Positions 6,942-40,138 of a stretch of 52,900 nucleotides of DNA are shown here, piece after piece (positions within the stretch are counted from its first letter, which is position 1; every line of letters begins with the position of its first letter). Source of the DNA: Thermoplasmata archaeon (GTDB lineage Archaea; Thermoplasmatota; Thermoplasmata; Lutacidiplasmatales; UBA184); contig JAKAYL010000007.1 of NCBI GenBank assembly GCA_021809545.1, positions 1 through 52,900 of the forward strand. Direction: 5' to 3'. A model generated the notes under the pieces. The model did no database searches and had not been told where the DNA came from. It worked only from the letters and a program-made list of their open reading frames with translations. Position numbers and translations under genes: made by a program.

Positions 6942-7430
6942 ATGTATTTCGACGATATCTCGGTTGGCGACCGCTTCGAATCCGGGTGGCGTCCGGTCAC
7001 CCAAGGCGATGTGGAGCATTTCTCCGAGCTCACGGGGGACCGGAACCCGATCCATCTGGATGAGGAGTACGCCCGGAGCACTCCCTTCGGGCGCCGGATC
7101 GTCCCCGGGTTGCTGTCGATCTCCCTCGGGCTCGGACTGTGGGCGGCCGCCGGGCACACCCGGGAGTCCTTGGTGGCGCTCATCGGACTGGAGGACGTGC
7201 GCTTCCTGCGTCCGGTCTTTCCCGGCGATTCTCTCCGCCTCGTCACGCAGGTCGCGGAGAAACGGGAGCTCAAGTCCCGGCCCGGGGCAGGGATCGCCGT
7301 TTACGAGGACAAGGTCGTCAACAATAGCCAGGAGGTGGTGGTAGAATTCCGCCGGACAGTCTTGCTTAAGAAGAGGGACATTCTCCCGCCCTCGAGGGTG
7401 AAAATCGATGGTGGAAAAGCGAAGATTTGA
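6942..7430 (+). CDS. MaoC-like (R)-specific enoyl-CoA hydratase
   Basis: A 162-residue hot-dog-fold protein with the MaoC/hydratase-2 signature GDRNPIHLDEEYA, containing the catalytic Asp and His, and the family start YFDDISVGDRF. Family members hydrate or dehydrate enoyl-CoA thioesters. It opens the catabolic operon: a strong purine-rich ribosome-binding site (GGGAGGAGAGGAG) lies at 6921-6933, and its end overlaps the oah start by 23 nt. In this setting it may handle a later beta-oxidation intermediate such as a pimeloyl/glutaconyl-type CoA ester, but this is inference from neighbourhood. Confidence 0.85.
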   Translation: MYFDDISVGDRFESGWRPVTQGDVEHFSELTGDRNPIHLDEEYARSTPFGRRIVPGLLSISLGLGLWAAAGHTRESLVALIGLEDVRFLRPVFPGDSLRLVTQVAEKRELKSRPGAGIAVYEDKVVNNSQEVVVEFRRTVLLKKRDILPPSRVKIDGGKAKI

Positions 7431-8361
7431 GGATATCCTTTACGAAACAGGCTGGCATGATCACACCGTCCTGATCACGATCAACCGGCCCTCCGAACAG
7501 AATTCCTACACTCTCAAGACCCTCCAGGAACTGGTCCAGGCGTTCGAGGATGCGATGTGGGACGACGACGTCCAGTTCATCGTCCTCACCGGGGCCGGGG
7601 AGAAGGCCTTCTGCACCGGCGGCAACGTCGACGAGTATGCGTTGAACTATGGCCGGAAGCCCAACGACTGGTGGAAGTGGGGGGAGATCTATGGTCGTTT
7701 CCTCCAGATCATCATGCACTGCGGGAAGCCCGTCATCGCGCGCATCAACGGGACGACCGCCGGCGGAGGCCTCGAGTTCGTGGCCGCCGGGGACCTCGCG
7801 GTGGCCGTCGAGAATGCGCGGATCCTCTCGCCCGGTCCACGGGTCGGTATGACCTCCATCGGAGGACTTTCCCAGTGGCTCCCGATCCACTCCGGGATCA
7901 AGAGGACCGCGGAACTTGTCATGCTCTCCAGTGAGATCACCGCGAAGAAGGCACTGGAGTGGGGGATCGTCAACGATGTCGTTCCTGCCGCAAAGCTCGA
8001 TGCCCGGGTGAAGGAGTACATCGACCGGATGCTGGATCTCTCCCCGACGAGCATCCATTATTTCAAGGTCCATCTCAACTGGTGGAAGGACATGGTCTGG
8101 GCAGGGACCTGGGAACACGCCAAGGAGTTCTTCTCCCTCAACATCGGCTCGGTCGAGCCGATGGAGGGGCTGGTCGCCTTCATGGAGAAGCGTCCCCGCA
8201 ACTACCGGAAGATCCGGGACAAGCTCGGCAAGGGGTTGGAGCCTCGCTATCCGTTCGGCCCCTATTCGGGCCGCTGCCCGAGCTGCGAAGCCGAATACCT
8301 CCCGGCCAACGCTGTCTTCTGCCTGAAGTGTGGTGTAAAGCTCCCGGCTCCTAAGAAATGA
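7408..8361 (+). CDS. oah: 6-oxocyclohex-1-ene-1-carbonyl-CoA hydrolase (Oah/BamA-like) with C-terminal zinc ribbon
   Basis: A crotonase-superfamily protein of 317 residues that fits the ring-opening hydrolase of anaerobic aromatic degradation, which converts 6-oxocyclohexene-carbonyl-CoA to 3-hydroxypimeloyl-CoA. Family-like blocks are CTGGNVDEYALNYG, KPVIARINGTTAGGG and SIGGLSQWLPI followed by KKALEWGIVNDVVP. From memory these align with BamA/Oah better than with ordinary enoyl-CoA hydratases. The last ~35 residues form a zinc ribbon (CPSCEAEYL...VFCLKCG), which I do not know from bacterial BamA; the usual protein is longer (about 360-380 residues) without it. Its stop overlaps the had start by 4 nt (ATGA). 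Confidence 0.78.
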   Translation: MVEKRRFEDILYETGWHDHTVLITINRPSEQNSYTLKTLQELVQAFEDAMWDDDVQFIVLTGAGEKAFCTGGNVDEYALNYGRKPNDWWKWGEIYGRFLQIIMHCGKPVIARINGTTAGGGLEFVAAGDLAVAVENARILSPGPRVGMTSIGGLSQWLPIHSGIKRTAELVMLSSEITAKKALEWGIVNDVVPAAKLDARVKEYIDRMLDLSPTSIHYFKVHLNWWKDMVWAGTWEHAKEFFSLNIGSVEPMEGLVAFMEKRPRNYRKIRDKLGKGLEPRYPFGPYSGRCPSCEAEYLPANAVFCLKCGVKLPAPKK

Positions 8362-9389
8362 AGGCGGCGGTCTTCCGAGGTCCGCATCAACCGCTTTCGA
8401 TCGAAGAGGTTCCCGTCCCAACACCCGCCCCCGGCGAGGCCTTGATCCGGACCGTGGCCTGCGGCGTCTGCGCCACCGATCTCCACTATCTCCACGGGAC
8501 CCCGACCTTCCACCCTCCCCCGGTCACGCTCGGCCACGAGATCTCCGGTATCGTGGAGAAGGTGACGCGCGAGGGTGGGTCCATCAAACCGGGAGACCGG
8601 GTGCTCCTTCCTTCCGTGATCTCCTGCGGACATTGCTCCCAGTGCCGCGTGGGTCGTGACAACATCTGCGAGAGCATGGTGATGTTCGGGAATCACATCA
8701 ACGGCGGCTTCGCTCCCTGGGTCGTCGCCCCCCAGGACTCCCTGGTCAAGATCCCCGAGGAAGTGCCCCTCGAGGAGAGCTGCCTCATCGCCGACGCCCT
8801 CTCGACCCCCTTCCATGCGGTGAAGAACCGGGGACAGGTGCGGGCCGGGGAGACGGTAGCGATCTTCGGCTGCGGCGGGGTCGGCATCAATGCGGTCCAG
8901 GCGGCCGCCGCGTTCGGGGCCCAGGTGATCGCGGTCGACATCGATCCCGGCAAGCTCGAACTGGCCCGAAAGTTGGGAGCGGTGGAAACGCTCAATGCGA
9001 AGGAGGGGGACGCTCCGAAAGCGATCCGCAAGCTGACCCGGGGCGGGGTGGATGCCGCCTTCGAGGTCATCGGGAATCCGGTCACCCTCCAGGCCGCCTT
9101 CGATTCCGTCCGCACGGGAGGGCGTCTCGTGACCGTGGGTTACAGCGAGCAGGACTGGACCTTGCGCGCCAGCCGGGTCATGTTCCGCGAGATCTCGATC
9201 CTGGGCTCCCTGGGCTGCCGTTCCGCGGAGTATCCCGTCCTCATGGACCTTGTCCGGAGGGGGCGGCTGCAGTTGGCCCCTCTCGTGAGCCGCAAGCTTC
9301 CGCTGGAAAAGGTGAACGAAGCGCTCGACGACCTCGAGAAGGGCCGCGTGATGGGCCGGCAGATCATCGTCTTCCCCGAGGAGAAGTAG
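8358..9389 (+). CDS. had: Zinc-type alcohol dehydrogenase, probable 6-hydroxycyclohex-1-ene-1-carbonyl-CoA dehydrogenase
   Basis: A 343-residue medium-chain dehydrogenase. Catalytic-zinc residues lie in CGVCATDLHYLHG and TLGHEISG. The structural-zinc Cys cluster is CGHCSQCRVGRDNIC, and the NAD-binding Rossmann motif is GCGGVGINAVQ. Had oxidises the 6-hydroxyl group made by Dch to the 6-oxo compound that Oah opens. The assignment to Had rather than a generic alcohol dehydrogenase rests on its position, coupled by ATGA overlap to oah and 9 nt before dch. Family membership is certain; the substrate is inferred. Confidence 0.8.
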   Translation: MKAAVFRGPHQPLSIEEVPVPTPAPGEALIRTVACGVCATDLHYLHGTPTFHPPPVTLGHEISGIVEKVTREGGSIKPGDRVLLPSVISCGHCSQCRVGRDNICESMVMFGNHINGGFAPWVVAPQDSLVKIPEEVPLEESCLIADALSTPFHAVKNRGQVRAGETVAIFGCGGVGINAVQAAAAFGAQVIAVDIDPGKLELARKLGAVETLNAKEGDAPKAIRKLTRGGVDAAFEVIGNPVTLQAAFDSVRTGGRLVTVGYSEQDWTLRASRVMFREISILGSLGCRSAEYPVLMDLVRRGRLQLAPLVSRKLPLEKVNEALDDLEKGRVMGRQIIVFPEEK

Positions 9390-9398
9390 CGAGGGAAG

Positions 9399-10163
9399 AT
9401 GGCCTCGATCGGTCTCGCGGTGGAGGAAGGGAACGCCGTCGTCTCCCTGCAGCGCCCCCCGCTCAACATCCTCAATCACGAGATGGTCCAGGAACTCTCC
9501 CAGATGCTAGACAACTTGTCCCGCGAACCCGCCGTTCGCACCGTGACCCTCGCCTCAGGGATCCCCGGGGTCTTCAGCGCAGGCGCGGATGTGAAGGAGC
9601 ACCTTCCTCCCATGGCGCGCACCCTCATCGAGGGCTTCGTAGGGCTCTGCCGGAAGCTCTTCTCCTATCCCAAACCCACCCTCGCCCTCGTGGACGGGAA
9701 GTGTCTCGGGGGAGGCATGGAGGTCGCCATGGTCTGCGATTTCGTCCTCGCCTCGGAGCGGTCCGTCTTCGGACAGCCTGAGGTGGCCGTCGGGGTCTTT
9801 CCCCCGGTGGGGGCCGCCCTATATCCCCTTCTCGCCGGCGTCCGGAACGCGCACCGGGTCCTCCTCTCGGGGGCGTCCTTCGATGCCCGGGAATCCCTTT
9901 CGATGGGTTATGTCACCGAGGTGGTCCCCCAAGCGGACCTCGCCTCGGCCCGCACCCGCTGGCTCCAGAACTTCTCGGGCCGCAGCGGGGTCGTGCTCCG
10001 GCTCTCCAAACGGGCCGTGCTCCAAGGACTGGGCCAGCCCTGGGAGACGGCGCTCTCCTCCGCAACCGATCTTTACCTCGGGGAGCTCATGTCCTCTGCG
10101 GACGCCGTGGAAGGGCTCCGAGCCTTCACGGAGAAGCGCAAACCCCAGTGGAAGGAATTGTAG
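9399..10163 (+). CDS. dch: Cyclohexa-1,5-diene-1-carbonyl-CoA hydratase (Dch-like)
   Basis: A 254-residue crotonase-fold protein. The blocks PPLNILNHEM, FSAGADVKEHLPP, LGGGMEVAMVCDFVLASE and FGQPEVAVGVFPP are the pattern I associate with dienoyl-CoA hydratases of benzoyl-CoA pathways (VKEHLP and GQPE...VGVFPP). Dch adds water to the diene made by class I benzoyl-CoA reductase. The start ATG has a GAGGGA ribosome-binding site just upstream. It is the last gene of the maoC-oah-had-dch unit, since the next gene has its own promoter at 10255-10262. Confidence 0.82.
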   Translation: MASIGLAVEEGNAVVSLQRPPLNILNHEMVQELSQMLDNLSREPAVRTVTLASGIPGVFSAGADVKEHLPPMARTLIEGFVGLCRKLFSYPKPTLALVDGKCLGGGMEVAMVCDFVLASERSVFGQPEVAVGVFPPVGAALYPLLAGVRNAHRVLLSGASFDARESLSMGYVTEVVPQADLASARTRWLQNFSGRSGVVLRLSKRAVLQGLGQPWETALSSATDLYLGELMSSADAVEGLRAFTEKRKPQWKEL

Positions 10164-10254
10164 CCGGGCCGAGTGGCCCACGAACTTCCTCGGACCACCG
10201 GTAGGGCCGGGGGACCGGGTCCACGACCGGTGGGAATTTGGCAGTTTAACCCTG

Positions 10255-10262
10255 CTTATATA
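10255..10262 (+). promoter_or_regulatory. TATA box of the M29-like gene
   Basis: CTTATATA centred 28 bp upstream of the ATG at 10287. This is the archaeal TATA position for a leaderless transcript. It decides the start of the downstream gene, whose frame is open further upstream, and separates it from the dch operon. Confidence 0.75.
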
Positions 10263-10286
10263 CGGGCGACCGCCTTTGGGGACGGC

Positions 10287-11396
10287 ATGCCCGAAGCACC
10301 CTCAAAACTCCAACGCGCGGCGGCCCGCAACATCGTGACCAAGTATCTCCGGGTCCGACCGGGAGAGAACGCGATCATCGAGTCGTGGGACCACACGATG
10401 CCGATGGCCCGGGCGATGGTCGACGAGATCCGCCGTGCGGGGGGCAAGACCCTGCACATCCACGAGGACGAAGACGCCTGGTGGCAAGCCATGGGACGGA
10501 AGCAGAGCAAGCTTCTGGGTCAGTTGAGCGCCCCCGAGTGGGCCGCAGTGAAGGCCGCCGATGTCTACGTGCACTTCTGGGGTCCCGGCGACACCGACCG
10601 GATCGAGAAGGCTCCCAAGAAGGCCTTCGAAGAGTCGGTCGCATGGCTCTGGCCCTGGTACAAGGAAGCCTGGAAGGCGGGGCTCCGCGGCGGGCGGGTA
10701 GCCATTGGGTTCGCGTCGGAGGGAAGGGCGAAGCAATGGGGCCTGGACCGCACCGAGTGGGAGGATGACATCTTGCGAGCCTGCCTCACCGACCCGGAGG
10801 AGACGGCCCGGCGAGCCGCCCGGCTCTATCGGGCGCTCTCCCGCGGGAAGGAGGTGCGGATCACCCACTCCAACGGGACCGACCTGACGGTCGGTCTGGC
10901 CGGGCTCGCCCCTCGACTGCACGACGGGAGGCCGCATCCCCGGGACAAGCGCTACGGCCGGTCGGACATGCTGGCGCAGATCCCCGGGGGGCGCATCGAT
11001 GTCACCCTCGACTCCAAGATGGCCGAGGGGAGCATTCATGCCAACCGCCGTACCAACATCTGGTGGGAGTGGAGCGCCGGGGGAACGCTGGAATTCTCCG
11101 AAGGCAAGCTCACTTCATACTCCTTCGAGGAAGGAGGGGAGGAGTTTGCGCGTGAGTTCAAGAAGGCCACCGCAGGGAAGGATCGCACCGGTTCGCTCAC
11201 GTTCGGTCTGAATCCCGCTGCGAAGGATGTCCCCAACCTCGAGAACATCGAGTGCGGGAGCGTTTCCCTCGTCCTGGGGGGGAACCGGCAGTTCGGGGGG
11301 ACCAACTCCTCCGATTTCATGAGTTGGATAACGCTCGCAGGATCCGAGGTCGCGGTCGACGGCACCCCCGTCGTCCGCGGCGGAAGGCTCCTCTAG
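10287..11396 (+). CDS. M29-family aminopeptidase-like protein, metal site possibly degenerate
   Basis: A 369-residue protein resembling thermophilic aminopeptidases of family M29 (AmpS/aminopeptidase T). Visible similarities are the N-terminal segment VRPGENAIIES, the mid region IPGGRIDVTLDS, and the C-terminal segments NIECGSVSLVLGGN and GGTNSSDFMSW. In active M29 enzymes the corresponding places carry metal-binding Glu (PGGE) and a His-x-Asp near the C-terminus. Here PGGR and SSD are seen, so the metal site may be lost or shifted. The start at 10287 follows from the TATA box at 10255-10262. It converges on bcrC with a 36-bp gap. Whether it belongs to the aromatic pathway is unknown. Confidence 0.6.
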   Translation: MPEAPSKLQRAAARNIVTKYLRVRPGENAIIESWDHTMPMARAMVDEIRRAGGKTLHIHEDEDAWWQAMGRKQSKLLGQLSAPEWAAVKAADVYVHFWGPGDTDRIEKAPKKAFEESVAWLWPWYKEAWKAGLRGGRVAIGFASEGRAKQWGLDRTEWEDDILRACLTDPEETARRAARLYRALSRGKEVRITHSNGTDLTVGLAGLAPRLHDGRPHPRDKRYGRSDMLAQIPGGRIDVTLDSKMAEGSIHANRRTNIWWEWSAGGTLEFSEGKLTSYSFEEGGEEFAREFKKATAGKDRTGSLTFGLNPAAKDVPNLENIECGSVSLVLGGNRQFGGTNSSDFMSWITLAGSEVAVDGTPVVRGGRLL

Positions 11397-11432
11397 GGCA
11401 GCGGGCGCCCCGAGGGGCGGCGCTGGCCCGCC

Positions 11433-12584
11433 TCAGTCGAAGAGGATGGACTCCGCGAAGGTCTCCACCATGGTGCGGGCGTGCTCGAAGCTGGAGGCCG
11501 ATTCCTCGTACTCGATGTGAAGGTAGGGGATCTTCTCCTTGTCGAGCGCGGACTTCCCGATCACGTAGTCGTAGAGGGCGGGTTCGCAGAACTTCGGCGT
11601 GAGGAAGACGACCCCTTCCGCCTTCTGCTCGCGAGCCTTCTCCAGGATCCGTTGCTGCTTGTCGAGCCCGGGGTGGTAGCGAACGGTGAGCACGTTGGGA
11701 TTGGACACGTACCCCTCGGCCAGGGCGGTCAGGGGGTCCTTCCCTTGCGGGAGCGGGATCCTTCCGAGCCAGCGTTCTCCCACGAGTCCCTCGTCCTGGA
11801 CGATGTAACATCCTGCATCCTCCATGGCCTTCAGGATGCCCAAGGGGGGTTGTTCGCAGAAGGTGCCGAGGACGACCACACGGATCTTGTCCATCGCCTT
11901 TCCTTCGACCTGCTTGGCCTCCTCCACGAACCGCTCGAGGAGGGGCAAGTAGCTTTCGATGGGCATGAGCGTCCCCGCCCGCAGGGTGGAATAGTACGAG
12001 GAATAGGAAAGGGCCCAAGGGCGGCTTCCCCGCAGCATCCCCAGTTCGGCCTCGAGGGCCCGCTTCCGGTTGTAGAGCTCCACGCTCTCCCGGAGCTTCT
12101 CGGTGTCGAGACGCACGCCTCCCACTTCAAAGAGGGTGTTCGCGAGCCGTTCGTACTCCGAGCGCAAGTAGGGGACCGCTGTTTGCGAGGTGTTGTTGAT
12201 GGGCAGGTGGAGATACTCGATGCGGGTGCGCTGGACGTTCCGCTGAGTGATCCCCGACAGGTTGCGGGCGACGTCGCAGATGTTCGAGAAGACGATGGCC
12301 TCCATCGCGTCCAGGTTCCCCTGGAGGACCAGCTGGAAGACGCTCCGGCTGATGGAGCAGACGAAGCTCTGGGTGTGGGCGGTGGCCCGGTCGAGAGGGA
12401 TCTTCCCCGAGGCCCCGAGGAGCCCGACGGGGAGGAAGCCCATGGCGTGGGCGAGTTCGGAAGGGAAGTAGACCGGGAAATACCCGACGGCCGGCCGGCC
12501 GGAGGCTTGCTTCCACTCCTTCACGGTCTGGAAGGTGGTGTAGGAATCCTCGACGTACTTGGAGAAGGTCTCCTCGGGCGTCAT
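11433..12584 (-). CDS. bcrC: Benzoyl-CoA reductase subunit C (class I, ATP-dependent)
   Basis: A 383-residue member of the 2-hydroxyacyl-CoA dehydratase D-component superfamily. The Cys-containing blocks SFVCSISRS, NICDVARNLSGI, GTFCEQPPLGILKAME, GCYIVQDE and KFCEPALYDY closely follow BcrC/BadD as I recall them, rather than generic HgdB. BcrB and BcrC together carry the iron-sulfur site where benzoyl-CoA is reduced to the cyclic diene. The start ATG at 12584 overlaps the bcrD stop by 4 nt and gives the family N-terminus (MTPEETFSKYVEDSY). It is the last gene of the bcr operon. Confidence 0.88.
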   Translation of the reverse strand: MTPEETFSKYVEDSYTTFQTVKEWKQASGRPAVGYFPVYFPSELAHAMGFLPVGLLGASGKIPLDRATAHTQSFVCSISRSVFQLVLQGNLDAMEAIVFSNICDVARNLSGITQRNVQRTRIEYLHLPINNTSQTAVPYLRSEYERLANTLFEVGGVRLDTEKLRESVELYNRKRALEAELGMLRGSRPWALSYSSYYSTLRAGTLMPIESYLPLLERFVEEAKQVEGKAMDKIRVVVLGTFCEQPPLGILKAMEDAGCYIVQDEGLVGERWLGRIPLPQGKDPLTALAEGYVSNPNVLTVRYHPGLDKQQRILEKAREQKAEGVVFLTPKFCEPALYDYVIGKSALDKEKIPYLHIEYEESASSFEHARTMVETFAESILFD

Positions 12585-13378
12585 GCCCCCACCCCCTTGC
12601 GTTTGAGCAGCCGGCGGTGCCCGAGATAGGCGGCCCCGAGGGCGGCGGCGTAGTAGAGGTCCGGCGAGGAGTTCAGCTTCGAGCCCAGCTTCGTCTCGAA
12701 GGCCTTCACGAAGGCGGGATTCTCCACCAGCCCACCGGTCAGGGTGACCTCGGGATTGATCCCGACCTGCTTCAGGGTGAGGTAGACCCTCCCGACCACG
12801 GACTGGTTGGCGCCCATCAGGATGTCCTCGAGGGGAACCTCTTGGGTGATGAGGTTGATGACCTCGGACTCCGCGAGCACGGAGCAGACGGTGGAGATCG
12901 CGACGGGGTTCTTGGAGGTGAGCGCGAGAGGACCGAGCGACTCCAGCCCGACCTGGGAGTAGAAGGCGATCTTCTCGAGGAAGCCTCCGCCACCGGCGGC
13001 GCACTTCTCGGTCGAGCGGAACTTGACGATCTTGCCCTTCTCATCGACCTTGGAGGCCCGGGCGTTCCCGGCCCCGACGTCCAGCACGCACGTGGTCCGG
13101 GGGAAGAGGAACTTGGCGCCCCGCGCCGCGGCCGTGATCTCGGTCACGCTCAGGTCCCGTTCCTCGTAGCGGTACCGGCCGAAACCGGTGACGGCGACGT
13201 AGTCGATGTCGGCCCGGGTCAATCCCGCGGAGGCGAGGGCGGACGCGAGGAGCTCCTGCGCCACCTTCGTCATGTCGTAGCCCGTCGGGGACCTCGCCTT
13301 GGCCAGGATCTTCGTGCCGTCCTCAAGGAGGATGGCGCGGCTGTTGCGGGTACCGATGTCGAGCCCCGCGGTGATCAT
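12581..13378 (-). CDS. bcrD: Benzoyl-CoA reductase ATPase subunit, BcrD-like
   Basis: A 265-residue ASKHA-fold ATPase. The phosphate-binding N-terminus is AGLDIGTRNSRAILL. Cluster Cys residues lie in TEKCAAGGGGFLE and STVCSVLAESE, and the C-terminal nucleotide motif is LTGGLVENPA. The segment after the cluster-dimer strand reads LDVGAGNARASK instead of the canonical GGQD of activator proteins, as in the BcrD/BadG type. With the partner ATPase at 13375-14196 it forms the electron activator that couples two ATP hydrolysed to each electron transferred. It overlaps both neighbours by 4 nt (ATGA). Confidence 0.85.
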   Translation of the reverse strand: MITAGLDIGTRNSRAILLEDGTKILAKARSPTGYDMTKVAQELLASALASAGLTRADIDYVAVTGFGRYRYEERDLSVTEITAAARGAKFLFPRTTCVLDVGAGNARASKVDEKGKIVKFRSTEKCAAGGGGFLEKIAFYSQVGLESLGPLALTSKNPVAISTVCSVLAESEVINLITQEVPLEDILMGANQSVVGRVYLTLKQVGINPEVTLTGGLVENPAFVKAFETKLGSKLNSSPDLYYAAALGAAYLGHRRLLKRKGVGA

Positions 13379-14196
13379 GCGGCCGACCTCCCGGTCCCCG
13401 TCGTGTTCTCGTACTTCTCCCGGGCGAAGAGGGCGGCGCCCAGGGCCCCGCAGAAGTTGGTCAGGGGACTGGTGTTGAGCTTCTGGCCCAACTGTTCCTC
13501 GAGGCACCGGATCATCCCGGGGTTCTGGGACACGCCTCCGGTGAAGGTGATCTCGGGGTCGATCCCGACCCGGCGGAGAAGGCCGATGGACCGCGTGGCG
13601 ATCGAGACGTGGATCCCGTAGAGGACGTCCTCGAGCTTGTTCCCCCAGGCGAGCTGCTCCTGGGTCTCCGTCTCCGCGAACACCGCGCAGGTGCTCGACA
13701 CTTTGACGGGATTCGAGGAGTTCATCGAAAGGGTGCCCACCTGTTTCAGGCTGAGCCCGAGGACTCGGGCCGAGCCCTCGATGAACCGGCCCGTGCCGGC
13801 GGCGCACTTGTCGTTCATGCAGAAGTCGACCACCTCGCCCCGGTCGTTGACCCGGATGGCCTTGGTGTCCTGCCCGCCCATGTCCAGCACGGTGCGGGTG
13901 CCCGGGAAGAGGGCGTGGGCTCCCTTGGCGTGGCAGCTGATCTCCGTCACTTGGGTGTTGCCGAACGTGATCCGGTAGCGTCCGTAGCCGGTCCCGATGA
14001 CGTAGGCGACCTGGCCCTCGGAGACGCCTGCCTTTTCCAGGAGTTGGGCGTACGCTTTCTTGGTCGCGGTGACGATGTTGATCCCCGTCATGTCGACGGT
14101 CGTCTCGACCAGCGCACCCCGGTCGTCGACGAGGGCGCCCTTGGTGTAGGTGGATCCCGCATCGATGCCGGCGAAGTAGGTGCGGAGAGCCTGCAT
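13375..14196 (-). CDS. bcrA: Benzoyl-CoA reductase ATPase subunit, BcrA-like
   Basis: A 273-residue ASKHA ATPase with canonical activator motifs: AGIDAGSTYTKGAL, VIGTGYGRY, DMGGQDTKAIRV, MNDKCAAGTGRFIE with the first cluster Cys, STCAVFAETE with the second, and FTGGVSQNPG. It lacks the extra ~150 residues of the Thauera-type BcrA. Both ATPase subunits here are short, more like the Azoarcus (Bzd) arrangement as I recall it. Two different ATPase genes, rather than one, distinguish this operon from ordinary 2-hydroxyacyl-CoA dehydratase operons. Its start overlaps the bcrB stop by one base (TGATG). Confidence 0.87.
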   Translation of the reverse strand: MQALRTYFAGIDAGSTYTKGALVDDRGALVETTVDMTGINIVTATKKAYAQLLEKAGVSEGQVAYVIGTGYGRYRITFGNTQVTEISCHAKGAHALFPGTRTVLDMGGQDTKAIRVNDRGEVVDFCMNDKCAAGTGRFIEGSARVLGLSLKQVGTLSMNSSNPVKVSSTCAVFAETETQEQLAWGNKLEDVLYGIHVSIATRSIGLLRRVGIDPEITFTGGVSQNPGMIRCLEEQLGQKLNTSPLTNFCGALGAALFAREKYENTTGTGRSAA

Positions 14197-15479
14197 CAGT
14201 TACCTCCTCCGCCCTTGCGTAGGGCGAGTGTCTCGAAGAAGGCATCCACCCGGTTCCGGGTCTGCGCCTCGCTGTAGTAGCGTGGGTCCACGTGGTCGGA
14301 TTCGATGAGGAGGGTGGGGATGTCGAGGTCCTTGGCGAGATGCTCGCGGATGTCCCCCTGGCCCATGGAGAAGCTCCGGCAGCTCTTGATCGAGTGGATG
14401 ACGACGCCGTCCGCCCGGTAGTCCCGGACGTACTTCTCGATCAGGTCGGTCCGCATCGGCATGTTCCAGTTGCAGTAGGCGTGGATCATGTACTCCGCCA
14501 GCGACTCGAAGGGCCGGTCGGGGTTGATCCGGAAGGAGTCCGTGTCGATCATTCCGGCCACCTTGGGATAGGTGGCGGCCACGCCCCGGGCGTTGTGCTC
14601 CCGGAAGAGTCCCCAGAAGTTCTTGAAGAACGGGTAGTTGGGGACGCCCTCGTAGACCAGCCGGTACTCCTCCTTCTTCGTGGGGCCCACACCGTGCTCG
14701 GCGCGGGCGTTGAGCTCGTCCAGCAGGAACCGGTAGAAGTCCACGCACTCCTGCGTGCCCCGGGCGATCGTGATCGGGGCCATGTAGTAGATGGCCTCGA
14801 AATAGGCGTCCATGGGACAGGGGGTGAGCTTTCCCATCTCGATGCACTTGCGCCACAGGTCCCAGGCCTCGGCCGAGAGGCGCATCGTCTCCCGGAATTC
14901 CTCCTCCCGGAACTTCTTGCCGCTCACGCGTTCCAGTTGAGGGATCGACTCCTCCAGTTGGCTGGCGACGTACTTGACGTCATGCGACGGGACCTTTCCG
15001 TCCCGTTCCCGGACGTAGGGGACGTCGACCACGAGCACCTCGGCCCCGGTCTGGTAGTGCAACTGCTCCCACCAGTGGATGTAGATCTGGCATCCGGAGA
15101 ACGTGAGCAAGAGGACGTCCGGCTTGGGAAGGACCCCGATGGAGGTGGACGTCCCTTCGGTGACGGAAGCCACGCCCATCTTGACATACCCGCAGGCATC
15201 CGTCGAGTACCCCATCTCCTCGGAGAGGGAGATGAGGGGCGGTGCGCCTCCCCGGTACGAGATGTTGAGGCTGGTGATCTCGGGGTAGAGCGGAACGATG
15301 TCGAAGACATTGAAGAGTTCGATGGGGTTCGCCATCACGAAGGCGTAGCCCACCTTCCTCCCCTGTTCCTTCGCCGTCAGGAGCCTTTGGAAGTATCTTT
15401 TGGTCAGTTCCCCTTGCATGCGTTTGGCTTTGTCGAAATTGTCGAACGAGAGAGGAGCGCTGCTCGCCGCTTCGGCCAT
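14196..15479 (-). CDS. bcrB: Benzoyl-CoA reductase subunit B (class I)
   Basis: A 427-residue protein of the HgdC/D-BcrB superfamily and first gene of the bcr operon. Conserved segments include FVMANPIELFNVFDIVPLYPE, the three Cys sites STDACGYVKMG, FSGCQIYIHWWEQ and IHSIKSCRSFSMGQ, and the acidic TLLIESDHVDPRYYS near the C-terminus. These Cys residues fit ligands of the [4Fe-4S] site shared with BcrC. Length equals the bacterial subunit. A TATA-like box (minus TAAATAA) at 15500-15506 lies about 24 bp before the ATG, so the operon mRNA is probably leaderless. Confidence 0.88.
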   Translation of the reverse strand: MAEAASSAPLSFDNFDKAKRMQGELTKRYFQRLLTAKEQGRKVGYAFVMANPIELFNVFDIVPLYPEITSLNISYRGGAPPLISLSEEMGYSTDACGYVKMGVASVTEGTSTSIGVLPKPDVLLLTFSGCQIYIHWWEQLHYQTGAEVLVVDVPYVRERDGKVPSHDVKYVASQLEESIPQLERVSGKKFREEEFRETMRLSAEAWDLWRKCIEMGKLTPCPMDAYFEAIYYMAPITIARGTQECVDFYRFLLDELNARAEHGVGPTKKEEYRLVYEGVPNYPFFKNFWGLFREHNARGVAATYPKVAGMIDTDSFRINPDRPFESLAEYMIHAYCNWNMPMRTDLIEKYVRDYRADGVVIHSIKSCRSFSMGQGDIREHLAKDLDIPTLLIESDHVDPRYYSEAQTRNRVDAFFETLALRKGGGGN

Positions 15480-15719: not shown

Positions 15720-16670
15720 ATGTTGGGGGACGTGGAGTGTTCTCGAAAGGGGTGCGCCCTTCCGGTCGTGATCGACCTCCCCTACGCGGGCGAGCACCTT
15801 TGCCGCCGGCATTTTCAGGCGTTCACCGAGGAACGGGTCCGTCGGGAGCTTCATCGGCAGGCTTCCGGACTGAAAGGAGGGGTGCTCGCGGTGGCCCTTT
15901 CCGGGGGCAAGGATTCGGGGACCATGCTCTCGCTCCTCGTCCGATTTCTGGGACGGCGGCGGAACGTCCGGATCGTCGCCCTGACGGTGGACGAGGGGAT
16001 CGAGGGATATCGCCCCGCGACCCTCGAAAAGGCCGCGGCCCTCACGAGCTCGCTCGGGATCGAGCATCGGATCCGAAGCTTCCACGACGAGCTCCAGACG
16101 AGCACGGATGAGGCCGCCCGGGCCCTGCCGGGCATCCCTCCGTGCTCGTTCTGTGGGGTATGGCGAAGGAACGTCCTCAACCGGATGGCCCGGGAGGTGG
16201 GGGCGGTCCGGCTGGCGGTCGGGTTCAACCTCGACGACCTCGCCCAGACGGTGCTCATGAACCTCGCAAGGGGAGAGCCGGCCCGTCTCCTCCAGATGGC
16301 CCCCCACGCACGGACCACCGAGGGCCTCGTGCCCCGCATCGCTCCCTTGGCACAGATCCCCGAACGGGAGGTGTACCTCTACGCCCGCTTGACGGGGATC
16401 CCCTTCGACCATTCCGAGTGCCCCCATGCTTCCCGGGCGATGCGGAACGTGTTCCGGGAGGTGCTCTGGCGTCTCGAGGAGGAGGTGCCGGGGACTCGCC
16501 ACGCCCTCCTGCGGACGCGGGAGAAGCTCTTGGAGGCTCTCGAGGCGACCCAGCCGGCCTCGACCCTGCCTCGCTGTGCCTTCTGCGGAGAGCCCTCCTC
16601 GAAGGCCGTTTGCCGGGCCTGCTCCCTGAGGAAAGACTTTATGGCCGAGGGAAGTGAGGTTCCTCCATGA
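15720..16670 (+). CDS. TtcA/Ncs6-family tRNA thiolation-type ATP pyrophosphatase
   Basis: A 316-residue PP-loop protein. The motif ALSGGKDSGTML binds ATP. An N-terminal zinc site is suggested by CSRKGCALP...HLCRRHF, a central PCSFCGVWRRN holds further Cys, and a C-terminal CxxC pair reads CAFCGEPSSKAVCRACSL. This architecture matches the TIGR00269-type archaeal Ncs6/TtcA proteins that adenylate and thiolate a tRNA base. Which base (C32 or wobble U34) cannot be decided. Its stop overlaps the hydroxyacyl-CoA dehydrogenase start by 4 nt, so an operon with that gene and the PrsW-like gene is likely. Confidence 0.85.
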   Translation: MLGDVECSRKGCALPVVIDLPYAGEHLCRRHFQAFTEERVRRELHRQASGLKGGVLAVALSGGKDSGTMLSLLVRFLGRRRNVRIVALTVDEGIEGYRPATLEKAAALTSSLGIEHRIRSFHDELQTSTDEAARALPGIPPCSFCGVWRRNVLNRMAREVGAVRLAVGFNLDDLAQTVLMNLARGEPARLLQMAPHARTTEGLVPRIAPLAQIPEREVYLYARLTGIPFDHSECPHASRAMRNVFREVLWRLEEEVPGTRHALLRTREKLLEALEATQPASTLPRCAFCGEPSSKAVCRACSLRKDFMAEGSEVPP

Positions 16671-17545
16671 CGGCACCAGGGAGCAAACCGGTGGAGAGCC
16701 TCTTCGTAGTGGGTTCCGGGATCATGGGGGCTGGCATCGCTGCCGTCGCCCTCACCAAGGGGATGCAGGTGCACCTCTACGATGTGAAGGACACCTTCCT
16801 GGAGAAGGGGGTTGAAACGGTCAACAATCACCTTCGCAAGATGGCCTCGAAGGGGAAGTTCCCTGCTGCCGACCTTGAGAAGTTCACCTCGGCCCTCAAG
16901 CCGACGCTCACGCTGGACGACGCGGCCAACACCGACCTCGTCCTTGAGGCGGCGCCGGAACGCATGGAGGTCAAGAAGGACCTCCTCAAACGGCTCGACG
17001 AGATCGTTCCGCCCCACGCCCTCCTCGCCTCGAACACCTCCTCGCTCTCCATCACCGTGATGGCCTCCGTCGTGCGCGACCCGGGCCGGGTGGTCGGTAT
17101 CCATTTCTTCAACCCGGTCCCTTCCATGGACTTGGTGGAGCTCATCTCCGGGGCCCACACCCGGCCCGAGGTGCTGGAGGCCGCGCGGCAGTTTTCGGTC
17201 AAGATGGGCAAGACGGTGACCGGGAGCAAGGACTATCCGGGCTTCGTGACGACCCGCTCCATCGGCGTGCTCATCAACGAGGCCATCTGGATGCTGTACG
17301 AGGGGGTGGCCTCCCGGGAAGACATCGACACCGCCCACAAGCTCGGCTTCCACCACCCCATGGGCCCCCTGGAACTTGCCGACCTCGTGGGACTGGACAC
17401 CGCACTCTCCATCTTGGAGCGTCTCTACACGGGATTCCGGGACCCTAAGTACCGGGCCTGCCCCCTTCTCGTCCAGATGGTCGAGGCGGGAAAGCTCGGA
17501 CGCAAGAGCGGGGAAGGGTTCTATTCCTACCCGGCGAAGGGATGA
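16667..17545 (+). CDS. 3-hydroxyacyl-CoA dehydrogenase
   Basis: A 292-residue NAD-dependent dehydrogenase that oxidises 3-hydroxyacyl-CoA to 3-oxoacyl-CoA. The Rossmann motif is VVGSGIMGAGIA. The catalytic His lies in GIHFFNPVPSMDLVE, flanked by the expected SNTSSLSI, and the C-terminal domain begins at PGFVTTRS and ends RKSGEGFYSY. It is a single-domain dehydrogenase of usual length. It could oxidise 3-hydroxypimeloyl-CoA, the product of the nearby ring-cleavage genes, but it lies in a different operon, coupled by ATGA overlaps to the TtcA-like and PrsW-like genes. Confidence 0.9.
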   Translation: MTAPGSKPVESLFVVGSGIMGAGIAAVALTKGMQVHLYDVKDTFLEKGVETVNNHLRKMASKGKFPAADLEKFTSALKPTLTLDDAANTDLVLEAAPERMEVKKDLLKRLDEIVPPHALLASNTSSLSITVMASVVRDPGRVVGIHFFNPVPSMDLVELISGAHTRPEVLEAARQFSVKMGKTVTGSKDYPGFVTTRSIGVLINEAIWMLYEGVASREDIDTAHKLGFHHPMGPLELADLVGLDTALSILERLYTGFRDPKYRACPLLVQMVEAGKLGRKSGEGFYSYPAKG

Positions 17546-18403: not shown

Positions 18404-20821
18404 ATGGAGTTTGGGAAGTTGCCCGTCGCCTCGGCCTTGGGAGATAGATCCCAAGGGGGAGTTCGCACTTCGAGCCCGGAACCCTCCGGTGCCCTTTCGG
18501 AGAGTACCCCCACGTCAACCGACTCGCGGTACACCGCCGTTTCGGAGCACTCTGGTCCATCCCGGACGACGTCGGCCTCATCGGCCAACCCCCCGGTCGT
18601 AGCCGCTCCCCCGGACTGGCCCGTACGGAAGGAGATCGATCTCGCTCAACAGGACCTCCCTCACCGCTCCTCGGGGGTCGAGTGGTGGTACTTCAATGCC
18701 CACCTGGTGACGCCGGACTCCCAGCACCTGGGGGTCTTCGGATCCTTTTTCCGGGTGGTCATCGGCCAGTCCAAGGAGGACGGGTCGCCGATCCATGCCC
18801 ACTTCCTCACCTGGGCCCTCTCGGATGAGCTGGGAGGTCGGTACTTCCCCACCTCGGCCGTCGAAGATTCGATGCTGGGCATCATCCTGTCCCGGCTGGA
18901 ACGCGGCGAGGGAACGAGCGACCCGAGGATCCGGCGAGCCCTGGCCGAATCGCTCCAGAAGGGAAGCATGCCACGTCCCGACCTCTCTCTCCGAGGAAAG
19001 GTCACCGTGGCCCAGGACCGGTTGGCCCTGGACTACGCGAGCTCCACGCTGCGGAAGGATGAGTCGGGGAACTATGTGGTGCGCTTCCGGGGAGAGAAGG
19101 CGAGTTGCGAACTCACCTTCGAACCCAAGGTGGCTCCCCACCGTCACGGGCGGGACGGCGTGGTCCCGGGAAAGGAGGGCGAGGAGATGTTCTACTATTT
19201 CGTGCCCCGCAACGAGGTCTCAGGGACCGTGATGCTGGACGGCAAGGAGTACCCCGTGAAGGGGACCGGCTGGTACGACCACGAGTTCGGAGGGCACCGG
19301 CCCCAGGCAGCGGGCGAACCCCAGATCCGTATGGAGGTGGCGTGGAACTGGTGCGGGGTCCAGTTCAACGACGGGTCGGCGTTCACAATCTACGAGTTGC
19401 AGGAGACGAAGTCGGGCAAGGACGCCGGGTCCACGGCCGTCCTCGTCCGCGCCGACGGAACGGAGGCTCGGTCCACGAAGATCTCCCTGGAACCGCTCCG
19501 CTGGTGGCGTAGCGTCCGGACCTTCGAATCCCATCCCACCGCCTGGGCGCTCAGGGTCCCGGAGCTCAGGATCGACCTGACCCTGGAGGCGGTCTTCGAC
19601 GACCAGGAGCTCATCACCGTGCTCTCCAAGCCCTCCTTCTGGGAAGGGCAATGCCGGGTCCGAGGGAGCGTCGAGGGCCGGCCGGTGAACGGTCTCGGCT
19701 ATTTCGAGCGGAGCGGGTTCTCCTTCCTCGATTCCCTGGACGATTTCTTCCGGGCCGTGTCGAGTGAGGTGCGGAAGTCGGTCGCCTCCCTCCTCCCCCT
19801 GCAACCCACCCGGAGGGAGGCGCTGGACCTCTTCGCCTCGCGGGAGCATGCTCACTTCTTGGAGGGGCTGGACGAGACCGAGATCGCGGCCTCCTTGGTC
19901 GCTCCGCTTCGGGCGATCACGGACCGCGGGGGCAAGGCCTGGCGTTCCTATGCCGCCCTCGCCTGCACGGAAGCCCTCGGGGCCGACTGCCGACCCTACG
20001 TCAAGTGGCTCTCCCTCCCGGAGATCATGCACAGTGGCTCCCTCATCGTCGACGATGTGGAGGACCGCTCCAACTTGCGCCGAGGGGGTCCGCCCGCCCA
20101 TGCGCTCTTCGGGGAAGCGGTCGCGATCAACGCCGGCACCGGAGCGTACTTCCTCGCGGAGGGCGTCGCCATGCGCGTGGAGGCTCCCGAGGGCAAGCAA
20201 CTCCGCCTGTACCGCCTCTACTTTGAAGGGCTCCGCGCCGGGCACGCCGGACAGGCCCTGGACCTGGTCGGGTTCGACCGGTACCTGGACGAGGTCGCCC
20301 GGACCGGGAAGACGGATGTCCTCGAACAGCGGATCATCGGGATGCATCGCCTGAAGACGGGGGCCCCCGCCGGCATCCTGGCCCGCATGGGAGCCGTGGC
20401 GGCGGACGGCCGTCCGGAGCAGGTCGAGGGACTCGGGCGGTTCTTCGAGAATTTGGGCATCGCCTTCCAGATCGTGGACGACGTGCTGAACCTCAAGGGA
20501 TTCAAAGGGGACCTCAAAGAGGTCGGCGAGGACATCGCCGCCGGGAAGATCACCCTCCCCGTGGTGGTCGCCCTCGGGCGCCTGTCCCCGGAAGCGAGGA
20601 CCGAGATGGTCCGGCTCCTGCGGTCCCGCCCACAGGATCCGGCCGTGATCGGCCGCATCATCGACTCCATCCGGGAGACCGGGGCCTTCGACCACTGCAT
20701 CCAACTTTCCGAGAAGATGGTGGACGAGAGTTGGCGGGAGGTCGATCCCCTCCTTCCGGAGAGCCTCTGGAAGGTGATGTTACGGGCCTTTTGCTGGTAC
20801 GTGCTGGAACGTCACTACTGA
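18404..20821 (+). CDS. Fusion of CrtC/AttH lipocalin-like domain with a type III-like polyprenyl diphosphate synthase
   Basis: An 805-residue two-part protein. After ~65 Ser/Thr-rich residues, residues ~80-455 are a CrtC/AttH-like (hydroxyneurosporene synthase, carotenoid 1,2-hydratase) beta domain. It starts with GVEWWYFNAHLV and contains the GTGWYDHEFGG and WNWCGVQFNDGS blocks. Residues ~500-805 are a trans-prenyltransferase with first Asp-rich motif DDVED near residue 548 and second motif DDVLN near 690. The DDxxN form and the LRRGGPPAH context resemble eukaryotic type III geranylgeranyl diphosphate synthases. Joining chain synthesis to a hydratase-like domain suggests a modified isoprenoid product; this is inference. 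The start ATG at 18404 is the only early in-frame ATG, but the disordered N-terminus leaves some doubt. Confidence 0.82.
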   Translation: MEFGKLPVASALGDRSQGGVRTSSPEPSGALSESTPTSTDSRYTAVSEHSGPSRTTSASSANPPVVAAPPDWPVRKEIDLAQQDLPHRSSGVEWWYFNAHLVTPDSQHLGVFGSFFRVVIGQSKEDGSPIHAHFLTWALSDELGGRYFPTSAVEDSMLGIILSRLERGEGTSDPRIRRALAESLQKGSMPRPDLSLRGKVTVAQDRLALDYASSTLRKDESGNYVVRFRGEKASCELTFEPKVAPHRHGRDGVVPGKEGEEMFYYFVPRNEVSGTVMLDGKEYPVKGTGWYDHEFGGHRPQAAGEPQIRMEVAWNWCGVQFNDGSAFTIYELQETKSGKDAGSTAVLVRADGTEARSTKISLEPLRWWRSVRTFESHPTAWALRVPELRIDLTLEAVFDDQELITVLSKPSFWEGQCRVRGSVEGRPVNGLGYFERSGFSFLDSLDDFFRAVSSEVRKSVASLLPLQPTRREALDLFASREHAHFLEGLDETEIAASLVAPLRAITDRGGKAWRSYAALACTEALGADCRPYVKWLSLPEIMHSGSLIVDDVEDRSNLRRGGPPAHALFGEAVAINAGTGAYFLAEGVAMRVEAPEGKQLRLYRLYFEGLRAGHAGQALDLVGFDRYLDEVARTGKTDVLEQRIIGMHRLKTGAPAGILARMGAVAADGRPEQVEGLGRFFENLGIAFQIVDDVLNLKGFKGDLKEVGEDIAAGKITLPVVVALGRLSPEARTEMVRLLRSRPQDPAVIGRIIDSIRETGAFDHCIQLSEKMVDESWREVDPLLPESLWKVMLRAFCWYVLERHY

Positions 20822-24922: not shown

Positions 24923-25336
24923 TCACGCCGCGGGTGCGGGTCGAACGCGGAGGTCGATCAGGAGCAGGCCAAGTCCCGCCACCGTGGCCGCCCCGAGTGC
25001 GCAGGTGAGCGCCATCAGGATCGGCCCGAGATAGAAGAACACCGTGGGAGGCAGGCCCTCGATCCCGGCCACCGCCGTCACGATCCGCTGGAGCGGCGTT
25101 TGGGGCAGGAGCAGCAACTGGGCCACCCAGAGCACGAAACCGTAGAGCGCGGCCACGATCACTCCCACGAAGTAGTTCCGCTTCCAGGAAAGGAGACCGA
25201 AGAGGGAGACGACCGGCACTTCCGCCCACCAGTAGGGTGCTACGACGGCTACGACCGCTGCCAGGAGCGCCACCACCACGGCCAGCAGGTAGGGGATGAA
25301 CCGAGGGGGAACCCCGCGTGTCTTCAGATCCGTCAT
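24923..25336 (-). CDS. Small integral membrane protein
   Basis: A 137-residue protein with about four hydrophobic helices (YLLAVVVALLAAVVAVVAPY is the first) and a short basic N-terminus. No family was recognised. Its start overlaps the stop of the upstream penicillin-acylase-like gene by 4 nt, so it may be an accessory membrane partner of that exported hydrolase. Confidence 0.7.
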   Translation of the reverse strand: MTDLKTRGVPPRFIPYLLAVVVALLAAVVAVVAPYWWAEVPVVSLFGLLSWKRNYFVGVIVAALYGFVLWVAQLLLLPQTPLQRIVTAVAGIEGLPPTVFFYLGPILMALTCALGAATVAGLGLLLIDLRVRPAPAA

Positions 25337-28011
25337 GGCGACAGCCTCCAGGTGGAGACGACCCCCATGGGGAAGGGTCCCGTGTCACTGCTGATCACCG
25401 ACATGTCCACGTACTTGTGATTGAGCCAGAGGGGTAGTTGGTTGTCGTAGTAATTCGAGCCGATGTTCTCGCTCGTGCCGCCCGGGATGATCCCCCAGGA
25501 GGGTCCATCCGAAGGGGTCGTGACCATGCGCAGGGAGGAGCCGATGGAGACCTGGGTAAGGGGAACGGTGAGCGCCGGGCTGAAGGGAGCGACTCCCGGC
25601 GTGTAGCCGTCTCCCCACTGGGGATACGGTCCCTCCGCAAAGGAGGGGTAGCCCAAGATGGAGGGGATGGTCAGGGCGTGGACCCGCCCCCACGTCCATC
25701 CCGAGAGGTCGGGCGCGGCCGAGGAACCCCCGCCCAGGTGGGCCTGGAGTAGGTCGAGCGCATCCACCGCCGACGAAGTGCTCACCGCCGCCCAACCGCC
25801 GGGAAAGACGGTCGCGTTGGGGTCGCTGAAGGCGTAGCTGAAGACCTCGTTGGGGTCGGGAGGCGTGGCGTTGACGAGCCCCATCTTCGGAAGAAGAGGC
25901 GTGTAGACCTGGTTCAGGATCTCATTCCACCAGTAGGAATAGATGGTGGGCCCCACCTCCCCGGTCTGGAAGCTGCCGTTCCAATTCGTCAGGTAGGGCA
26001 GCGCCGCCTTGGCCAGGGCACCGGCGGATCCCGTGTTGGAGGCCGAGATGTTCTGCAGCGTCTTCTCGAGGATCGGAGCGTACATGACCGCCCAAGAGTC
26101 GGTCACATTGGCCTGGAGGGCCTGCATGTTGGCCGGGGGCATGCTGGGGTGGGTGTTGAGGTAGTTCCCGATGGTGTGGGCCCGGCCTCCCGGATCCCAC
26201 CAGCTACCGATGAAGGGGAAGGGATACTCTTGTCCGACCGTGGGTTGGTTGGGTGCATACAGGTAGCCACGGGCGGGGTCGACGACCTGCGGGCTGAGGT
26301 TCGAAGGAACGGCCCCGACCGGCTCGTACCCTCCCGAACCGTTGAGTGGCCCGCGAGAGCCGATGACCTCCACCGACTGGTTGTTGGGCATCGAGACCCG
26401 GATCAACGGATATTTGGCCGGGATGATCCAGCCGATGTGGTTGGCGCCGGTCGTAGCGTTGTGCTCGGCCATCATGAAGTTGAGCGTGGGGATATGCCAG
26501 TATTTTTCCAGGATCCCTGTCATCTGGCTGATGGAGACGGCGCGGTCGAAGAGGAGCTCGGAGAGCAATTCCCAGGTGGGTCCGGAACCCGCCCACCGGA
26601 CAGAGATACCATAGTTCCCGATGCGGCCCACGAGCGGGCCGTTGTTCGTCCAGGGGACACTTAGCGAGACCGACGCCCCGCCGTTCACCGAGATGGTCTG
26701 GTTCTGGTAGGTGAACGGGTGCCAGGTGCCGTTCGAGAGGTACGAGTCTCCCTGGAGCGTCTCGACGTAATCCTCGGCGGTCGCTCCGCCGGAATAGGTG
26801 AGCCCCCACGCCACGCTCCCGTCGTGTCCGATGAGGATTCCCGGGAGGCCGGCGAGAGCCCAGCCGCTCACTCCGTAGGAAGGGTCGTTCAGGTTCGTGG
26901 GGATCCAGAGGGAAGGGAGTTGAAGCGGAAGGTGGGGGTCGTTGGCCAGGAGCGGCATGCCGAGCCCCGTCTTGTTGGCGGAAACGACCCAGGAGTTGCT
27001 GCCCACACCCTCCGAGGCGGCTGCAGCGCCGAGCCCCGGGAGGAAGGGGTCCGAGACGTTGGCGAGCGCCGCCCGGAGCAGGGGGATCAATTGCTGGGTC
27101 TCGGCAGTGGGGATCCCGGTGGCCCAGGGTTGGGACCAGTCCTGGGAGAAGACGTAGGTCGAGTTGACCCCCTGTTCCTGGGCCAGGGAGACGTTGTTCA
27201 CGGAGCCGTTCCCGGGGAGGACGGTGTAGTTCTGATAGTAGGGAGGGTAGATCGGATAGAGGTGGTTGAAGGTGGAGTCTCCGAGAGTTGCAGCGGCGAG
27301 CCCCCCCTCGAGCGGCTCTACGATGCCGGCGGTCTGGGAGAGCACCATGAGCCGCTCGAAGCAGAGGGAGGCAAAGGGAGTCCAGTGAAAGGGGGAAACC
27401 CCGAGGGCTTTGAAGGGGAGAGGGAGGGCGTTGTGCGCCTCCGCATAGGCGATGTACGCGTTGACCCCGTCGCTAAAGGCATTGAAGTCCGCGGCCACCG
27501 CCGGATCCTGGGAGGGGAGCCCGGTGGCCATCTGGGCGGCGGCATGCGGGATGCCGAGGTAACGGAACGTCATGTCGGACCCGAGCGCGCTCGGGCCAAG
27601 CCAGGAGGAGAGGTTCCCCTGGGCCATCATGCTCTGGGCCTCCATCTGGAAGAGCCGGTCCGAGGCCTGGACGAACCCCTGGGCGTAGAACAGGTCGGCG
27701 TCGTCCGCAGCGTAGATGTAGACGGTGCCCGCCCCGTTCCTCACGACGGTGACCTTGTGCTGGAGGCCGGAGAGGGTGAAGCTCTGGTTCCCCCACGAGC
27801 TGTAGGTGGCGTCGGTGAAGATGCCGACCTCGGGGTCCAGGAGCACGAGCGTCCCGTTGAGGACGAAGCCGACGACGATCAGGAGGACCAAGGGTACAAG
27901 AAAGGAGGCCGCGGCCCGGACGCGCTTTCGTCGAGGGGAAGCCGCCCGTCGGGACTTCGGTTTCTTCTCCTCGGGAACTGCTTCCGTGGCCTTGTCTGGC
28001 TCTCCCGACAT
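25333..28011 (-). CDS. Penicillin amidase (acylase)-family Ntn hydrolase, membrane-anchored
   Basis: An 892-residue protein. A basic cytoplasmic stretch (~30 residues) precedes a membrane segment (SFLVPLVLLIVVGFVLN), so the enzyme is exposed outside the cell. The alpha-chain region follows (AQGFVQASDRLFQME). The autoprocessing site and nucleophile Ser lie in GVGSNSWVVS near residue 336. NDPHLPLQLPSLW follows as in other members. Family members hydrolyse amide bonds, for example of acylated amino acids or acyl-homoserine lactones. The substrate is not predictable. Length is typical of the unprocessed precursor. Confidence 0.88.
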   Translation of the reverse strand: MSGEPDKATEAVPEEKKPKSRRAASPRRKRVRAAASFLVPLVLLIVVGFVLNGTLVLLDPEVGIFTDATYSSWGNQSFTLSGLQHKVTVVRNGAGTVYIYAADDADLFYAQGFVQASDRLFQMEAQSMMAQGNLSSWLGPSALGSDMTFRYLGIPHAAAQMATGLPSQDPAVAADFNAFSDGVNAYIAYAEAHNALPLPFKALGVSPFHWTPFASLCFERLMVLSQTAGIVEPLEGGLAAATLGDSTFNHLYPIYPPYYQNYTVLPGNGSVNNVSLAQEQGVNSTYVFSQDWSQPWATGIPTAETQQLIPLLRAALANVSDPFLPGLGAAAASEGVGSNSWVVSANKTGLGMPLLANDPHLPLQLPSLWIPTNLNDPSYGVSGWALAGLPGILIGHDGSVAWGLTYSGGATAEDYVETLQGDSYLSNGTWHPFTYQNQTISVNGGASVSLSVPWTNNGPLVGRIGNYGISVRWAGSGPTWELLSELLFDRAVSISQMTGILEKYWHIPTLNFMMAEHNATTGANHIGWIIPAKYPLIRVSMPNNQSVEVIGSRGPLNGSGGYEPVGAVPSNLSPQVVDPARGYLYAPNQPTVGQEYPFPFIGSWWDPGGRAHTIGNYLNTHPSMPPANMQALQANVTDSWAVMYAPILEKTLQNISASNTGSAGALAKAALPYLTNWNGSFQTGEVGPTIYSYWWNEILNQVYTPLLPKMGLVNATPPDPNEVFSYAFSDPNATVFPGGWAAVSTSSAVDALDLLQAHLGGGSSAAPDLSGWTWGRVHALTIPSILGYPSFAEGPYPQWGDGYTPGVAPFSPALTVPLTQVSIGSSLRMVTTPSDGPSWGIIPGGTSENIGSNYYDNQLPLWLNHKYVDMSVISSDTGPFPMGVVSTWRLSP

Positions 28012-40130: not shown

Positions 40131-40138
40131 GGTTTCCC

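Follow-up and report, generated by a model that had tools for sequence, protein, structure and literature searches.

The window analysed here is a 52,900-nt stretch of contig JAKAYL010000007.1 (assembly GCA_021809545.1) from an uncultured, soil-type Thermoplasmata archaeon (Thermoplasmatota; Lutacidiplasmatales; UBA184). Between positions 6,942 and 15,479 it holds two convergent gene sets, for a predicted benzoyl-coenzyme A (benzoyl-CoA) reductase (BCR) and for enzymes that would process the reduced ring. The plus-strand set starts with maoC (6942..7430), encoding a MaoC-like (R)-enoyl-CoA hydratase (PF01575, 88 bits), and continues with an oah-like gene (7408..8361) for a candidate ring-opening hydrolase of the crotonase fold with a C-terminal CxxC...CxxC zinc ribbon, had (8358..9389) and dch (9399..10163). 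Facing it on the minus strand are a bcrB-like gene for the catalytic subunit with a predicted active-site [4Fe-4S] cluster (14196..15479), the genes of a bcrA-like first ATPase (13375..14196) and a bcrD-like second ATPase (12581..13378), both of the ASKHA type, and a bcrC-like gene for a second HGD-D-fold subunit (11433..12584). An M29-peptidase-like gene on the plus strand (approximately 10287-11396; PF02073, 38 bits) lies between dch and bcrC, and is missing from that place in L032, the sole congener with a matching region. A previous reading of the DNA from its letters alone (the sequence-only reading) had described these genes, all of which are confirmed as intact where it placed them, as coupled by overlaps of 1-4 nt. 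This holds for oah/had (4 nt) and for all three minus-set junctions (1 nt for bcrB and the first ATPase, 4 nt between the ATPases, and 4 nt, ATGA, for the second ATPase and bcrC), but maoC and oah overlap by 23 nt and had and dch are separated by a 9-nt gap. The same seven genes recur in relatives, so their arrangement is not due to chance, and the composition of the locus is native to the host genome (GC 64.8% against 64.5% genome-wide; tetranucleotide correlation of 0.98 for the locus and 0.997 for the contig).

The reductase has the subunit make-up of class I enzymes, with two PF06050 and two PF01869 proteins encoded in one overlapping gene set. We scored the proteins against curated NCBIfam equivalogs, each with its cut-off: TIGR02259-02263 for Bcr, TIGR03201 for Had, TIGR03189 for Dch and TIGR03200 for Oah. 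BCR models were the best equivalogs for both catalytic subunits, with 328 bits for BcrB (TIGR02260, cut-off 487) and 255 bits for BcrC (TIGR02263, cut-off 421), as compared with 210 and 190 bits for 2-hydroxyacyl-CoA dehydratase models. The first ATPase matched TIGR02259 (198 bits) and the second TIGR02261 (155 of 313 bits). Among chains of solved structures, BcrB is closest to MbdO (215 bits), followed by HadB (174 bits) and BzdO (107 bits); the nearest to BcrC is MbdN (227 bits), and the ATPases match MbdQ (315 bits, first ATPase) and MbdQ/MbdP (193-194 bits, second). Both ATPases retain their cluster cysteines. The motifs of the first are canonical, and the long N-terminal region of the BcrA model (432 positions) has no counterpart in it. 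In the second, GAGN replaces the GGQD nucleotide motif and GGGGF replaces GTGRF, as in the window-type relatives checked (GAG[NS]). These substitutions suggest that the two ATPases may be functionally unequal.

Key residues were taken from the BzdNO structure (PMC11971306) and mapped onto 101 archaeal and bacterial sequences, the window included. In 101 of 101 sequences, the three cysteines that ligate the active-site [4Fe-4S] cluster are invariant, and so are the catalytic Glu and the Tyr97 equivalent (BcrB C96, C130, C367, E67 and Y98, corresponding to BzdO C95, C128, C380, E65 and Y97). The His131 equivalent is a Tyr in the window, as in most relatives. BcrC retains the equivalents of BzdN C73, C100 and C327, while the distal double-cubane cysteines C36, C263 and C293 are replaced, and a single [4Fe-4S] cluster is therefore expected in this subunit. 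The window reductase thus does not have the six double-cubane cysteines and the His131 that mark the BZD type. The two different ATPases and the BcrB- and BcrC-like subunits with cysteine sites, all reported in the sequence-only reading, are borne out by these alignments.

Phylogenies of the reductase point the same way. In the BcrB tree, the window falls in a clade of seven (support 100/100) that lies within BCR-locus sequences, with HadB, BzdO and MbdO outside; it includes the window, two other Thermoplasmata genomes and four metagenome-assembled genomes (MAGs) labelled Nitrososphaerales, Nitrososphaeria, Ca. Caldarchaeum and just 'bacterium'. The trees of BcrC and of each ATPase recover the same seven members, and none of the four subunits was placed with the 2-hydroxyacyl-CoA dehydratases. 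The branch leading to the BcrB clade is long (1.19 changes per column). Its sister comprises other archaeal BcrB, from the ordinary operon type of the family, Heimdallarchaeota and one further archaeon, and both groups lie amid bacterial BCR-locus sequences. Separately, L047 and L122 have additional BcrB-like genes close to their BCR loci; these are deeply diverged and form their own clade with long branches. The Thermoplasmata rows nest inside the Nitrososphaerota rows, and inter-phylum transfer is therefore the simplest reading; the topology suggests that the module moved between archaeal phyla, in a direction that depends on the root. One Thermoplasmata genus probably acquired it from Nitrososphaerota, or exchanged it with them. 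Within the family, BcrB of either type occurs in 28 of 61 genomes. The congener G099 has both the ordinary BCR operon and the window type, and G000 and G288 have the window type only.

The ring-processing enzymes keep the same company. Dch (TIGR03189, 155 of 293 bits) falls inside the clade of BCR-locus Dch (100/99), apart from the enoyl-CoA hydratases of the host. For Had, TIGR03201 is the best model by 20 bits (237 of 339), and in a tree made without purpose-chosen outgroup alcohol dehydrogenases its nearest sequences are Had of BCR loci; it is 61-63% identical to the Had of L056 and L057, where gene order is kept. The order maoC-oah-had recurs in the congeners G288 and G099 at 58-61% identity, and was not found in the Nitrososphaerota loci. 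Oah scores 136 of 464 bits with TIGR03200, slightly below its MenB and BadI scores, while the Oah of another BCR locus (L078) passes that cut-off with 486 bits. The crotonase tree groups the window protein with Oah (clade support 100/96) and separates it from MenB and the host's own enoyl-CoA hydratases, so that both oah and dch group with homologues from BCR loci. The clade has three lineages: the window with L056 and L057, the classical TIGR03200 Oah, and a broad group in which nearly all members have the zinc-ribbon tail. An orthologue 64-80% identical to the window Oah was found in all six other window-type genomes searched; in the short stretches around it, had was adjacent in five of the six and dch lay behind in four. 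Across the BCR loci fetched, the two kinds of Oah never occurred together (55 versus 13 loci, none with both; some loci were fetched twice, and the classical-looking L124 was counted among the others), and this mutual exclusion would fit a replacement of one by the other. Zinc-ribbon crotonases also stand at the classical Oah position in many bacterial and archaeal BCR loci (L106, L094, L084, L072, L033 and others), and those that were scored fell below the TIGR03200 cut-off, such that they would escape marker searches.

Taken together, we put at roughly three in four the probability that this is the locus of an ATP-dependent (class I) aryl-CoA reductase of the BCR kind, accompanied by enzymes that process the reduced ring. 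The sequences themselves show the subunit composition, the cluster ligands, the membership of clades and the conservation of the gene sets, whereas the substrate, the activity, the electron donor and the ring-opening role of the Oah-like protein are inferred. Reduced ferredoxin, supplied via the host's single Kor-type oxidoreductase, would be the electron donor. The two ATPases would fire low-potential electrons, by way of a bridging [4Fe-4S] cluster, into the pair of BcrB- and BcrC-like subunits, which would convert benzoyl-CoA or a close derivative into a cyclic dienoyl-CoA. Dch would then add water, Had would oxidize the resulting alcohol to a ketone, and the zinc-ribbon-tailed Oah-like crotonase would hydrate the ring and open it hydrolytically, giving a 3-hydroxypimeloyl-CoA-type product for beta-oxidation. 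A 3-hydroxyacyl-CoA dehydrogenase gene located 3' of ncsA (16667..17545, plus strand; 343 bits with 3-hydroxybutyryl-CoA dehydrogenase models) is a tentative candidate for the next step, oxidation of 3-hydroxypimeloyl-CoA; its tie to the locus, including co-regulation, is putative.

Several observations count against the presence of such a pathway. Every protein of the locus, all four Bcr subunits included, scores below the cut-off of its equivalog, which is why we file the reductase as a variant rather than as a Thauera-type equivalog. Oah is highly diverged, and the GQxGPKxGS loop of classical Oah and MenB reads SPGPRVGM, a change confined to the window-type Oah clade. The trees were built without authenticated Thauera BcrB or Ferroglobus BCR, and a plasmid search for named reference sequences returned distant dehydratases only. 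A genome-wide search found no benzoate-CoA ligase, and the locus has no ferredoxin gene of its own. Finally, genes resembling those of 4-hydroxybenzoyl-CoA reductase (Hcr) occur in most family members, including those that are free of BCR, and are not specific to the locus. The sequence-only reading had called the locus complete, and this Thermoplasmatota genome does have the full gene set of a class I type BCR, together with Dch, Had and a hydrolase resembling Oah; the word is nevertheless too strong for a locus with a diverged Oah and a CoA ester whose origin is not accounted for.

Other genes of the host genome (1.96 Mb, 99% complete) bear on the supply of substrate and electrons. The absence of a ligase and a dedicated ferredoxin from the window had been noticed from the sequence alone. 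The only three AMP-binding enzymes of the genome were considered as ligase candidates and rejected: one is of the long-chain type by model (TIGR02262, 260 of 375 bits), and the others are of the acetyl- and acetoacetyl-CoA synthetase types, as read from their sequences and not by model. The host also has two or three ADP-forming acyl-CoA synthetase-like genes, and aryl-CoA could come from these or from beta-oxidation. A penicillin-amidase family protein encoded elsewhere in the window (25333-28011, minus strand; PF01804, 511 bits) might free aromatic acids from their amides. In ordinary operons a gap of ~190 nt separates the second ATPase from bcrC, and the reading frames there give no ferredoxin. 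One Kor-type 2-oxoacid:ferredoxin oxidoreductase and ferredoxin-like domains are encoded elsewhere in the host; an indolepyruvate oxidoreductase gave no match above the cut-off. The window further includes an NQR2/RnfD-like membrane protein (PF03116) beside a Fer4_20 and pyridine-nucleotide oxidoreductase (47504-50222, minus strand), possibly involved in ferredoxin redox balance.

The neighbours of the module in relatives lend it supporting evidence. The L056 and L057 loci carry, contiguous with the module, genes for a 4Fe-4S protein, an NrfD-like membrane protein, a 2-oxoacid:ferredoxin oxidoreductase of the Kor-like kind, a ~905-aa molybdopterin oxidoreductase and an Hcr-like set, and such Nitrososphaerota neighbours support a role in aromatic-CoA metabolism. 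Their company resembles the route from phenylacetyl-CoA through phenylglyoxylate to benzoyl-CoA; as curated phenylglyoxylate models do not single it out, we regard this as a lead. A PaaK-like ligase adjoins the bcr genes in L059. The host itself has no match to this ligase and no PF00384 molybdoenzyme, and phenylacetyl-CoA oxidation was rejected for it. It does have HcrABC-like genes (TIGR03194, 823 of 995 bits, next best 514; TIGR03195, 287 bits, next best 113), but HcrB-like genes are nearly family-wide and their value as proof of a benzoyl-CoA pathway is weakened; therefore, just their linkage to the module counts. Such linkage is seen in G288, with an Hcr-like set directly upstream of bcrB, in G398, with HcrB ~5 kb from bcrB, and in G099, with HcrB ~4 kb from the window-type Oah.

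These genes bear on the nature of the substrate. The window-type enzyme might act on another ring, such as methyl- or hydroxybenzoyl-CoA or a heteroaromatic compound, with a ring hydrolase tuned accordingly, as hinted by the coexistence of both reductase types in G099, by the Oah active-site loop altered in the window clade only and by the long BcrB branch. We consider this rather unlikely: genomes with the window type alone indicate that it can stand on its own, and the Hcr-like genes beside the module suggest that benzoyl-CoA is the central intermediate. It is very improbable that a HadBC-type 2-hydroxyacyl-CoA dehydratase of amino acid breakdown was misread as BCR. The two belong to the same superfamily and HadB follows MbdO closely among the solved chains, but there are two different ATPases instead of one homodimeric activase, BCR models outscore those of Had, HadB lies outside the window clade, and Dch, Had and Oah are constant companions. 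Equally hard to credit is a leftover or artefact, be it a misbinned foreign contig or genes without a working pathway for want of a CoA ligase, since the missing ligase and the variable flanking genes among congeners are countered by the match of the locus to the host composition, by intact window-type BcrB in four congeneric MAGs (with partner genes alongside in the stretches read), on which grounds contamination was rejected, and by the other conceivable sources of aryl-CoA.

The sequence-only reading proposed breakdown of aromatic acids without oxygen, and this stands for the chemistry, which would use no oxygenase; the organism, however, encodes a heme-copper oxidase and no PF00384 enzyme, and an anaerobic lifestyle is therefore not demonstrated. 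It is possible, though we would not call it probable, that an archaeal lineage living in acidic soils and mine sediments respires oxygen and dearomatizes aryl-CoA with its own clade of ATP-dependent reductases and an undescribed zinc-ribbon-tailed hydrolase in place of classical Oah, the module having passed between archaeal phyla. If so, anaerobic-type ring breakdown is spread through archaea that seem capable of oxygen respiration, and it escapes current marker models, since relatives of Oah fall far short of the curated cut-off. Two cases then lend themselves to testing, namely a ring-opening enzyme whose tail and active-site loop are new, and a BCR common to two archaeal phyla.

Two other features of the window stand apart from the locus. 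An 805-aa frame (18404-20821, plus strand) fuses a CrtC-type lipocalin pair (PF07143, PF17186) to a polyprenyl synthetase (PF00348), and an ABC transporter ATPase, two inner-membrane-like frames, a 770-aa solute-binding protein (PF12849) and PhoU-domain proteins (37559-44637, minus strand) apparently form a phosphate uptake set.

The sequence-only reading knew archaeal BCR from Ferroglobus-type Archaeoglobales only, which the literature contradicts. The Bcr-Dch-Had-Oah pathway was reported in 2019 in Thermoplasmata and Bathyarchaeota MAGs from deep-sea seeps (PMC6472368). Other reports describe bcrABCD in Ca. Yaplasmales (PMC9239135) and, in Hermodarchaeota, a cluster of bcr, dch and had (PMC8163825). 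Lutacidiplasmatales were described as aerobic or facultative (PMC9287336) in a text that mentions neither 'benzo' nor 'aromatic'; one MAG of that study, SubAcS9-61, carries the ordinary operon, 83% identical at the nucleotide level to that in a genome of the family, in keeping with a probable placement of the window's family in this group. In the open-licence literature searched, where absence is weak evidence, we found no description of the clade common to the window and Nitrososphaerota, of the diverged Oah with its zinc ribbon, or of the pathway in a family that apparently respires oxygen.

Among characterized enzymes, the 3-methylbenzoyl-CoA reductase MbdONPQ of Thauera chlorobenzoica (PDB 9g87, 9gai) is the best-scoring solved relative of all four window subunits, which match it in number and size, and the window's C subunit, like MbdN, is expected to have one cluster; in the BcrB tree, however, MbdO groups with other Thermoplasmatota loci (L044-L047), outside the window's group. 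BzdNOPQ of Aromatoleum (PDB 8s02; PMC11971306) has the equivalents of the active-site Cys, Glu65 and Tyr97 in common with the window, but differs by its double-cubane cysteines and by His131. The models of BcrCBAD from Thauera and Rhodopseudomonas are the best curated equivalogs for the four subunits, yet none of the subunits reaches its cut-off, and the long N-terminal part of BcrA is lacking from the first ATPase. Closest in content is the ordinary BCR operon of the family (oah-bcrB-A-D-C-dch-had), which has the same gene functions and forms the sister clade, but lies on one strand, has a different Oah subtype and a BcrB only 42-45% identical. Like the window, the archaeal systems reported earlier, including that of Ferroglobus placidus, have bcr genes of class I, in some cases accompanied by dch, had and oah, and the window type differs from them by its separate clade with Nitrososphaerota. 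The pathway itself is thus not new to archaea, and the locus is a distinct archaeal version of it.

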